DNA of 64,000 nt from Pseudomonas resinovorans NBRC 106553 (GTDB taxonomy: Bacteria; Pseudomonadota; Gammaproteobacteria; Pseudomonadales; Pseudomonadaceae): contig NC_021499.1 of NCBI RefSeq assembly GCF_000412695.1, positions 4,960,001 to 5,024,000 of the forward strand. Reading direction: 5' to 3'. Under the pieces are notes generated by a model. It was not told the DNA's origin, ran no database searches, and saw nothing but the letters and a program-made list of their open reading frames with translations. Both the position numbers and the translations under genes were made by a program. Below, in pieces: positions 8,721 through 44,532 of this stretch (its first letter is position 1; each line of letters starts with the position of its first letter).

Positions 8721-8735
8721 GCTTTCCTCGGGGCG

Positions 8736-8761
8736 AAAAAAGGGGCGGGGGTTACCCGCCC
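8736..8761 (-). terminator. rsmZ rho-independent terminator
   Basis: On the minus strand, GGGCGGG (8761-8755) pairs with CCCGCCC (8749-8743) around a 5-nt loop, followed by a run of Ts at 8741-8736. It defines the 3' end of rsmZ. Confidence 0.88.
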
Positions 8762-8866
8762 ACTCTTTTGTCCCTATTCCCTGTATTCCTTGCTCATCAT
8801 CCTGATGAATCGCATCCTGCGATGTCCTGGCCGACATCCTTATCAGCCCGCGTACATCCTGTACGC
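8736..8866 (-). ncRNA. rsmZ: Regulatory small RNA RsmZ (CsrA/RsmA sponge)
   Basis: RsmZ sequesters the translational repressors RsmA/RsmE through repeated GGA motifs, relieving repression of secondary metabolism, exoenzyme and biofilm genes. On the minus strand this segment has eight GGA motifs (plus-strand TCC at 8771, 8778, 8787, 8800, 8815, 8825, 8837 and 8857). Several lie in hairpin loops: 8850-8866 (6-bp stem, loop AGGAT), 8809-8823 (6-bp stem, loop GGA) and 8795-8807 (5-bp stem, loop GGA). It ends with the GC hairpin 8743-8761 and a T-run. The position between fdxA and rpoS, the orientation and the core around CAGGACATCGCAGGA match fluorescent-pseudomonad rsmZ. The 5' end (about 8866) is inferred from the -10 box. 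An IS element lies 14 bp upstream of it, so expression is doubtful. Confidence 0.88.
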
Positions 8867-8873
8867 AAGAGTG

Positions 8874-8879
8874 ATATTA
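8874..8879 (-). promoter_or_regulatory. Inferred rsmZ -10 hexamer, rebuilt from the IS target duplication
   Basis: TAATAT on the minus strand lies 7 bp before the presumed rsmZ 5' end. Its TAA comes from the IS target-site duplication (CTAA on this strand) and its TAT from unique rsmZ sequence, so the insertion point lies within this hexamer. In the uninterrupted ancestor it would have been preceded by TTGCCC at a 16-bp spacing. Confidence 0.6.
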
Positions 8880-8880
8880 G
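8877..8880. repeat. Left IS target-site duplication TTAG
   Basis: TTAG precedes the left end of the IS and matches the YTAR target typical of IS5-group elements. The identical TTAG follows the right end at 10071-10074. Confidence 0.85.
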
Positions 8881-8897
8881 GGAAACTCTGAAAAAGA
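8881..8897 (+). repeat. IS5 left terminal inverted repeat
   Basis: GGAAACTCTGAAAAAGA forms the left end. The reverse complement of the right end, GGATGGTCTGAAGTAGC, shares GGA, TCTGAA and AG in register. Confidence 0.8.
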
Positions 8898-8944
8898 CTT
8901 TCTGATTTGGCAAAATACCGCGACCCCACCCACCGAGTTTCCCG

Positions 8945-9925
8945 ATGAAGCAGATGACCTTCGCCGACGCCGAGTACGCTGGCAAGCGCAAGCAAACCCG
9001 CAAGGAGTTGTTCCTGATCGAGATGGATCGGGTGGTGCCGTGGAAGGGCTTGATTGCTTTGATCGAGCCACATTATCCGAAAGGTGAAGGTGGCCGTCCG
9101 GCCTACCCGTTGATGGCGATGCTGCGTGTGCATCTGCTGCAGAACTGGTTCGGCTACAGCGATCCAGCGATGGAGGAAGCGCTGTACGAAACCACGATCC
9201 TGCGCCAGTTTGCCGGGCTGAACCTGGAGCGCATCCCCGACGAAACCACCATTCTCAACTTCCGCCGCTTGCTGGAGAAACACGAGCTGGCGGCCGGCAT
9301 CCTCGCTGTCATCAATGGCTATCTGGGCGACCGCGGCCTGTCGCTGCGCCAGGGCACCATCGTCGATGCAACGCTGATCAATGCGCCCAGTTCGACCAAG
9401 AACAAGGACGGCAAGCGCGACCCGGAAATGCACCAGACCAAGAAGGGAAACCAGTATTATTTTGGCATGAAGGCCCACATCGGCGCCGATGACGAATCGG
9501 GTCTGGTGCACAGCGTAGTGGGCACGGCGGCCAATGTGGCGGATGTCACCCAGGTGGACAAATTGCTGCATGGCGACGAAAACGTGGTCTGCGCCGATGC
9601 AGGCTACACCGGTGTCGAAAAGCGGCCCGAGCATGAAGGACGTGAAGTTATCTGGCAGGTGGCGGCACGCCGCAGCACCTACAAAAAACTCGATAAGCGC
9701 AGCGTGCTGTACAAAGCCAAGCGCAAGATTGAAAAGGCCAAGGCTCAGGTGCGCGCCAAGGTCGAGCATCCGTTCCGGGTAATCAAGCGCCAGTTCGGTT
9801 ACACCAAGGTGCGCTTTCGCGGCTTGGCCAAAAACACGGCGCAACTGGTGACACTGTTCGCTCTGTCGAACCTGTGGATGGCGCGCCGACATTTACTGAC
9901 GAATGCAGGAGAGGTGCGCCTGTAA
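8945..9925 (+). CDS. IS5-family transposase
   Basis: The transposase has 326 residues and a DDE catalytic core. The first Asp is D141 in TIVDATLI, the second D218 in VCADAGYTG, and the Glu E274 in AKVEHPFRVIKRQFGYTK, the last matching the IS5-group Y-(2)-R-(3)-E-(6)-K type pattern. The N-terminal part (DUF772-like, about residues 40-115) contains RPAYPLMAMLRVHLLQNWFG, common to IS5 transposases. No stop or frameshift is present, so it could be active. The ATG at MKQMTFADAEY is the first in-frame start inside the element. Codon choice is less GC-biased than in the neighbouring core genes, as expected for a mobile gene. Confidence 0.95.
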   Translation: MKQMTFADAEYAGKRKQTRKELFLIEMDRVVPWKGLIALIEPHYPKGEGGRPAYPLMAMLRVHLLQNWFGYSDPAMEEALYETTILRQFAGLNLERIPDETTILNFRRLLEKHELAAGILAVINGYLGDRGLSLRQGTIVDATLINAPSSTKNKDGKRDPEMHQTKKGNQYYFGMKAHIGADDESGLVHSVVGTAANVADVTQVDKLLHGDENVVCADAGYTGVEKRPEHEGREVIWQVAARRSTYKKLDKRSVLYKAKRKIEKAKAQVRAKVEHPFRVIKRQFGYTKVRFRGLAKNTAQLVTLFALSNLWMARRHLLTNAGEVRL

Positions 9926-10053
9926 TGCGGGAAATGGCCACCGGAGTGGGGTCCGGGTGGCGAAAACGTAAGAAATACTCGTCGAATTGATTGTTTTTTG
10001 ATCATTTGGCGAGTTTAAAAGTTGCGCTAGGTGGTATGCCGGGGAAATACATG

Positions 10054-10070
10054 GCTACTTCAGACCATCC
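10054..10070 (-). repeat. IS5 right terminal inverted repeat
   Basis: Read on the minus strand this is GGATGGTCTGAAGTAGC, the partner of the left repeat at 8881-8897. It is followed directly by the second TTAG. Confidence 0.8.
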
Positions 10071-10074
10071 TTAG
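10071..10074. repeat. Right IS target-site duplication TTAG
   Basis: An exact copy of the TTAG at 8877-8880. Together they mark the insertion point and allow the ancestral rsmZ promoter to be reconstructed by removing 8881-10074. Confidence 0.85.
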
Positions 10075-10089
10075 CGATCTGCCGGCCTC

Positions 10090-10095
10090 GGGCAA
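10090..10095 (-). promoter_or_regulatory. Displaced rsmZ -35-like element
   Basis: TTGCCC on the minus strand would lie 16 bp before the TAATAT -10 of rsmZ if the IS were removed. With the IS present it is about 1.2 kb away and cannot serve rsmZ. It sits inside a small inverted repeat, CGGGCAAGTTGCCCG (10089-10103). Confidence 0.45.
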
Positions 10096-10103
10096 GTTGC
10101 CCG

Positions 10104-10234
10104 AATCGACTTAGGGTGTGATTCTCACGGTACGATTTAAAAATAAAATACTTATAATTCAATAAGTTAATAAATATCTTCCACTGAAACTCACCGTTCA
10201 CCAGCAGCAACTTCCGCCAATTGCGTACGCGCCA
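10104..10234 (-). promoter_or_regulatory. AT-rich linker between GacA site and rsmZ promoter
   Basis: About 130 bp of non-coding DNA, with 10130-10190 strikingly AT-rich (several TAAATA and TTATAA runs) in an otherwise GC-rich chromosome. In P. aeruginosa and P. protegens the region between the GacA site and the rsmZ promoter is AT-rich and is bound by H-NS-like MvaT/MvaU proteins and IHF. I infer the same role here. I see no gene in it. Confidence 0.5.
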
Positions 10235-10252
10235 TGTAAGCAATCGCTTACA
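10235..10252. promoter_or_regulatory. GacA upstream activating sequence for rsmZ
   Basis: TGTAAGCAATCGCTTACA is a perfect match to TGTAAG-N6-CTTACA, the palindromic site bound by phosphorylated GacA upstream of rsmX/Y/Z in Pseudomonas. It lies just past the rpoS terminator. Removing the IS puts it roughly 175-190 bp upstream of the inferred rsmZ start, consistent with the distant UAS known in P. protegens. With the IS it is about 1.37 kb away. Confidence 0.92.
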
Positions 10253-44270: not shown

Positions 44271-44532
44271 TTCTATTCCTCGATAAGTCGGGTTAGGCCT
44301 CCACGCATCCCAATATCCAACCCTTGCGGGCACCCAGGATATCGTGTCGATACGTGTGCGGGTTTGAGCTCAACGGACAGCACGCCCGTAAAGCGGCGCG
44401 TTTTATAGCATAGAAAGCCACTCGAAGCTACAGGCTTGAAGCTCGGAAACCGGCGACCCGCGCTTGCCGCTTATGGCATGCAGGCCGAAGCTGTTAATAT
44501 CAAGCCTTTTCCGTTTGCGCCCGAGAGCCACT

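Follow-up and report, generated by a model that had tools for sequence, protein, structure and literature searches.

The kind of event that we describe here, in which an insertion element enters an RsmZ-type locus or gac function is lost, is already known from other pseudomonads. In Pseudomonas fluorescens SBW25, loss of gacA or gacS is among the mutations that compensate for the plasmid pQBR103. This plasmid encodes RsmQ, an RsmA homologue able to bind fragments of RsmY and of RsmZ; deleting gacS gave better compensation with pQBR103 than with pQBR57 (PMC8544851, PMC9928087). For Pseudomonas putida S12/A, a published table lists the element ISS12 in "PrrB RsmZ-like ncRNA" and places a variant of ISS12 in the carbon storage regulator of the plasmid (PMC5658596). 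In a stretch of pTTS12 of P. putida S12, we observed a CsrA frame (approximately positions 1678 to 1830 of that stretch) that meets an ISS12-type element close to its end; the frame aligns through residue 51, which is 15 bases beyond the printed border of the element. The rsmZ promoter of Pseudomonas aeruginosa has a GacA site followed by a site for the repressor MvaT, upstream of the gene in that order (PMC3985676).

We analyzed a window of 64,000 nucleotides that corresponds to positions 4,960,001 to 5,024,000 of the chromosome of Pseudomonas resinovorans CA10 (NBRC 106553), here called C1; the resident plasmid pCAR1, published as pCAR1.3, is called C2. CA10 is the original host of pCAR1, and its genome was determined by 18-fold pyrosequencing and 75-fold Illumina sequencing, with ambiguities corrected using the Illumina data and gaps closed by 30-kb fosmids, primer walking, and PCR (PMC3735057). 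The reading that we favor, with a probability of about 0.7, is that a copy of IS1384 from pCAR1 or from a recent common source cut the rsmZ promoter and that, together with a frameshift in gacS, this would interrupt the Gac-Rsm pathway at two levels. The features of the rsmZ locus are collected in Table 1.

Table 1. Features of the interrupted rsmZ promoter region, in window coordinates
Feature	Position	Strand	Basis
rsmZ small RNA, intact	8735..8867	-	RF00166, 113.7 bits; eight GGA motifs; terminator-like hairpin
Terminator-like hairpin of rsmZ	8743..8761	-	Promoter/terminator scan
-10 box TAATAT of rsmZ, rebuilt by target duplication	8874..8879	-	TAnTAT in 61/65 aligned promoters
Target duplication TTAG, rsmZ side	8877..8880		Sequence
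IS1384 (IS5-like), complete copy of 1,190 bp whose transposase gene points away from rsmZ	8881..10070	+	100% identity to annotated copies
IS1384 transposase, 326 aa	8945..9925	+	Open reading frame; DDE_Tnp_1, 130.8 bits
Target duplication TTAG, rpoS side	10071..10074		Sequence
Displaced -35 box TTGCCC of rsmZ	10090..10095	-	TTG in 65/65 aligned promoters
Displaced AT-rich stretch resembling the P. aeruginosa rsmZ MvaT site	10136..10178		By eye; candidate
Displaced GacA box TGTAAG-N6-CTTACA	10235..10252		Perfect motif; conserved spacing in relatives

A first-pass annotation of this DNA had called an rsmZ-like RNA on the minus strand at 8736 to 8866, and comparison with Rfam bears out that call. 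The match spans the full RF00166 model (positions 1 to 133), and its score is far above the gathering score of 44 and inside the range of 83.2 to 119.2 bits that we obtained for 17 genomes. All eight GGA motifs fall within the matched stretch, and the gene occupies the expected place between rpoS and fdxA and ends in a terminator-like hairpin. Among the best 150 of 334 first-look candidates that were scored, rsmZ was the only match to RF00166 in the genome. The CA10 RsmZ itself is undecayed; judged from its sequence, the RNA is still a member of RF00166, one that appears to have lost its usual control. The window contains another small RNA, t44 (RF00127), at 44292 to 44378 on the minus strand (74.6 bits).

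The interval between rsmZ and rpoS had been read as holding a complete 1,190-bp IS5-group element with a TTAG duplication, and the element can now be named. Along its full length of 1,190 bases it matches, at 100% identity, Pseudomonas plasmid copies that carry the annotation IS1384; it has inverted ends, encodes a DDE transposase, and is bordered on both sides by a 4-bp duplication of the form YTAR. YTAR is the usual target of elements of the IS1384 type. The second, identical copy in this genome lies on pCAR1 (C2:3259-4448), and an earlier record of that plasmid, NC_004444, has a copy at the same position. Among the best 40 of 83 first-look candidates scored, we found four relatives of IS1384 at 85% identity, all on the plasmid, and no further chromosomal copy. 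Transposition from pCAR1 to the chromosome is the simplest reading, its direction being one that we infer. Because RsmZ is undecayed and the two IS1384 copies are identical, the insertion looks recent.

The same identity between copies could mean that the element at rsmZ is an artefact of assembly, placed there from the plasmid. We consider this extremely improbable: the target duplication is clean, identity between the chromosomal and plasmid copies stops at the borders of the element and the flanks differ, both chromosomal flanks are collinear with relatives, and the gaps in the genome were closed by the fosmid, primer-walking, and PCR work cited above (PMC3735057).

The insertion target, CTAA, partly coincides with the beginning of the rsmZ -10 box. 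To place the promoter elements, we used 65 aligned rsmZ promoters, consisting of those of 64 relatives and an empty CA10 site made by joining the two flanks in silico, which aligns with the relatives. The distance between the -35 and -10 boxes is 16 bp in every promoter that has TAnTAT (61/61), and it is also 16 bp in the empty CA10 site. Upstream of rsmZ lies a stretch that is 76% A+T across a 55-bp slice. In CA10, the -35 box, this AT-rich stretch, and the GacA box have each been moved 1,194 bp away from the -10 box. The first-pass annotation described the insertion as separating rsmZ from its GacA site; the displacement of the box holds, and the description is too narrow, given that the -35/-10 core promoter has been split too. 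Because the -10 box has been parted from both the -35 box and the AT-rich stretch, the basal activity of the rsmZ promoter should be damaged, beyond the effect on Gac control. Displacement of the GacA box together with the MvaT-like stretch would likewise remove an activating and a repressing input.

The duplication of the target preserved the -10 box and the start region, and insertion elements of this kind can form hybrid promoters. It follows that the end of IS1384 might supply promoter function to the retained -10 box, in which case RsmZ would be produced independently of Gac, bypassing the apparently broken gacS and free of MvaT-type repression. We regard this outcome as very unlikely. 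In natural promoters, the TTG of the -35 box is strongly conserved at 16 bp from the -10 box, and the native CA10 -35 box matches the consensus at 4/6 positions, whereas the end of the element offers only 0 to 1 of 6 matches at spacers of 16 to 18 bp. At a spacer of 19 bp it has 3/6 matches, which is a counterpoint to the reading that we favor. A consensus scan detected no promoter on the rsmZ strand, although the same scan also misses the native promoter region. We also considered a start from the orphaned -35 box combined with a -10 box inside the element, with read-through into rsmZ, and set it aside as weak, the best hexamer matching at 3/6 positions.

The perfect GacA box that had been noted at 10235 to 10252 is real. 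With up to two mismatches allowed, 0.47 chance occurrences of such a box are expected in 64 kb, so the motif by itself does not exclude chance; chance is excluded because the motif is rare genome-wide and its distance to RsmZ is conserved. Only two perfect boxes (spacer of 5 to 7) occur in the whole genome, one at rsmZ and the other just upstream of rsmY. The earlier estimate that the box now stands about 1.37 kb from rsmZ instead of about 180 bp agrees with our computed distances between the end of the box and the start of the RsmZ model, which are 1,367 bp at present and 173 bp in the IS-free site.

The comparison of the fdxA-rpoS gap in related strains, which had been proposed as a check, shows how rigid this spacing is. 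From 80 named relative loci, we removed 15 whose stretch lacked rpoS or fdxA and retained 65 rpoS-fdxA gaps. In 60 of the 65, the GacA box lies 237 to 256 bp from a constant reference position in RsmZ, and the boxes themselves are perfect in 19 relatives, carry one mismatch in 35, and carry two in 6; the remaining five comprise four without a box within two mismatches and one without the anchor. The corresponding distance in CA10 is 1,445 bp, i.e., 251 + 1,194. A set of 17 genomes that overlaps the named relatives (15 from the same genus and two others) gave a spacing of 243 to 255 bp in all 17. Among the relatives, P. resinovorans DSM 21078 has an rsmZ promoter that is intact. CA10 therefore departs from the arrangement that otherwise marks an rsmZ gene, a GacA box at a constant upstream distance. 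Because the spacing is so rigid in relatives, the predicted loss of GacA control over the CA10 rsmZ, which the first-pass annotation had also proposed, is well supported at the level of sequence.

Three of the 65 rpoS-fdxA gaps exceed 1 kb. One belongs to P. fluorescens C8, whose GacA box is preceded by a long frame that resembles a transposase (of IS110 type, judged by eye); the box, lying downstream of this frame, keeps its spacing to RsmZ at 249 bp, and for that reason we rejected the idea that IS insertions are a common feature of the rsmZ promoter. The other two long gaps have no GacA box within two mismatches.

A second lesion lies approximately 23 kb before the window. At C1:4935338-4938057, the match to GacS/BarA runs in two frames that meet, in this assembly, at C1:4936822. 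The first frame contains the sCache_4, HAMP, HisKA, and HATPase domains; the receiver and Hpt domains fall in the second, which has a separate GTG start codon. The break, which we aligned with relatives, comes immediately past the ATPase domain, within a G-rich tract. All 15 genomes of the same genus that we compared have one long, stop-free GacS/BarA match, which reaches at least profile position 890 in 14 of them and ends at 786 in one. The single frame joining kinase, receiver, and Hpt domains that characterizes the GacS/BarA hybrid kinases is thus absent from CA10 gacS. GacS depends on its receiver and Hpt domains to phosphorylate GacA. The kinase looks broken in this assembly, with the counterpoint that the second half, given its own start codon, could work as a separate protein. 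The first-pass annotation had supposed that the defect is confined to one RNA; the gacS frameshift in this assembly contradicts that supposition, which is probably wrong.

That supposition would be rescued if the gacS frameshift were a sequencing error, rsmZ alone had been hit, and rsmY were working. The location of the break in a G-rich tract, where pyrosequencing can err, and the use of pyrosequencing for part of the data speak for this explanation, but the sequence was corrected with Illumina reads at 75-fold depth. Frame breaks are also rare in the stretch of approximately 300 kb around gacS. In a comparison of this stretch with one relative, 158 of the 242 open reading frames of the relative were whole in CA10 and five were flagged as split; the opposite comparison gave 146 whole frames out of 226 and again five flags. 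The filter used for this control keeps the longest of overlapping frames, which means that it drops some true genes in favor of antisense frames. Two of the ten flags are gacS itself, one of them through an antisense frame, and seven of the other eight lack any Pfam domain, which is what antisense frames would be expected to show. At C1:4850428-4850942, a 172-aa open reading frame of the relative with a Sel1 repeat aligns in two frames and may represent a second broken gene or a different start. Weighing the sequencing depth and the rarity of split frames against the nature of the tract, we consider a sequencing error in gacS unlikely.

GacA, rsmY, and a chromosomal RsmA are present in the genome, as established by searches that, for gacS and rsmY, scored part of the first-look candidates. 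GacA is open across 214 residues, and a chromosomal CsrA/RsmA was found at 90.9 bits. A search for the sister RNAs, which had been suggested to see whether they might compensate, recovered rsmY (99.9 bits, with its perfect GacA box just upstream); rsmX was not found in the CA10 genome. We dismissed rsmX as a backup RNA, given that its sole match was the rsmY locus itself, below the cut-off. The split in gacS implies that RsmY is probably not activated either, although intact rsmY could carry the pathway if GacA were phosphorylated by another route. A third and weak CsrA-like match at C1:4864829-4864921 (24.6 bits, below the cut-off) may be an RsmN/RsmF-type protein.

Two lesions in one pathway raise the question of their order. 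One explanation is that the loss of gacS, whether in nature or in culture, preceded the insertion at rsmZ and that this insertion was neutral, with rsmZ no longer under selection. In an evolution experiment with roots, gac mutants appeared readily (PMC8262913), and the undecayed state of RsmZ, reflected in its score of 113.7 bits, allows both lesions to be recent. Against this, the window contains 53 YTAR sites, which extrapolates to approximately 5,200 on the chromosome, and only four of them lie between the GacA box and the start of RsmZ; that the single chromosomal IS1384 should occupy one of these four without selection is improbable, and chance landing there is rare, with the caveat that the sites were counted post hoc. 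We treat this sequence of events as a tentative possibility, short of even odds.

The plasmid itself could have taken part. pCAR1 encodes a 57-aa CsrA/RsmA protein (C2:112844-113014) that matches PF02599 at 74.1 bits, compared with a curated cut-off of 27, and is a predicted RNA binder. The same protein sequence occurs in four plasmid records, one of them NC_004444 (pCAR1). Relatives with at least 80% identity occur in 8 plasmid records of the 210 with a match, and csrA of the pCAR1 type is present in 3 of 398 genomes of the family, one of which is CA10. A rewiring driven by the plasmid would combine this CsrA, an insertion element identical to that of pCAR1, and the loss of gacS to silence the RNA sponges that titrate RsmA/CsrA, such that the host tolerates the plasmid. 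Given the parallels with SBW25/pQBR and P. putida S12/A, co-adaptation of plasmid and host is a reasonable idea and, by analogy, possible. It is weakened by the two other genomes with pCAR1-type csrA, both of which have gacS in a single frame and a normal rsmZ promoter, and the complete scenario of plasmid-driven rewiring strikes us as quite unlikely. The cause may instead be storage in the laboratory, niche adaptation, a relaxation of selection once gacS had been lost, or chance.

Our preferred reading, an IS1384 insertion that cut the rsmZ promoter in a strain with a frameshifted gacS, leaves the cause aside and starts from what is directly observed, namely the anatomy of the locus, the conservation of the parts that have been separated, the identity of the IS copies, and the break in the gacS frame. 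IS1384 would have left pCAR1, or a very recent common source, and entered a CTAA/TTAG target that overlaps the rsmZ -10 box. Duplication of the target would have rebuilt the -10 box while pushing the -35 box, the AT-rich stretch, and the GacA box 1,194 bp away. RsmZ would then be made at a low, constant level independent of Gac, or be absent. In this assembly, the gacS frameshift puts the sensor-kinase half and the receiver-Hpt half in different frames, and with GacA, rsmY and its box, and the chromosomal RsmA all looking intact, RsmY would probably go without activation. From the predicted loss of RsmZ and of Gac signaling, we infer that the cell would shift toward free RsmA and possibly toward free plasmid CsrA.

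Among the literature matches listed, judged by titles and abstract openings, we found no description of the rsmZ or gacS lesions of CA10; a derivative of the strain, CA10dm4, appears in at least six papers. If Gac-Rsm is off at two levels, comparisons of CA10 with other Pseudomonas hosts would be comparisons of Gac-off with Gac-on backgrounds. CA10 also provides a test case for whether a natural pairing of plasmid and host shows the Gac-Rsm compensation seen in evolution experiments, and if the rewiring explanation is true, compensation through gac in the laboratory would have a counterpart in the field that was partly written by the plasmid's own transposable element.

Set beside the described systems, the CA10 locus resembles each of them in part. 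The IS1384 copy of pCAR1 (NC_004444) is identical over 1,190 bases, and the CA10 copy differs in its chromosomal location and its flanks. The CA10 locus agrees with the P. aeruginosa rsmZ promoter in its GacA box, which is followed in both by an AT-rich stretch and then the start; the P. aeruginosa promoter has GacA, MvaT, and BswR sites, whereas the GacA box and AT-rich stretch of CA10 stand 1,194 bp further from the -10 box (PMC3985676). P. putida S12/A is likewise an aromatic-tolerant Pseudomonas that bears a plasmid and has an insertion element in a gene of RsmZ type, but there the IS21-family element ISS12 is listed inside the RNA gene, while in CA10 IS1384 divides the promoter and the RNA remains whole (PMC5658596). 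With SBW25/pQBR, CA10 shares the loss of the Gac pathway, predicted in the case of CA10, in the host of a plasmid that carries its own CsrA/RsmA homologue; that system comes from evolution experiments with measured fitness, whereas CA10/pCAR1 is known from sequence alone.
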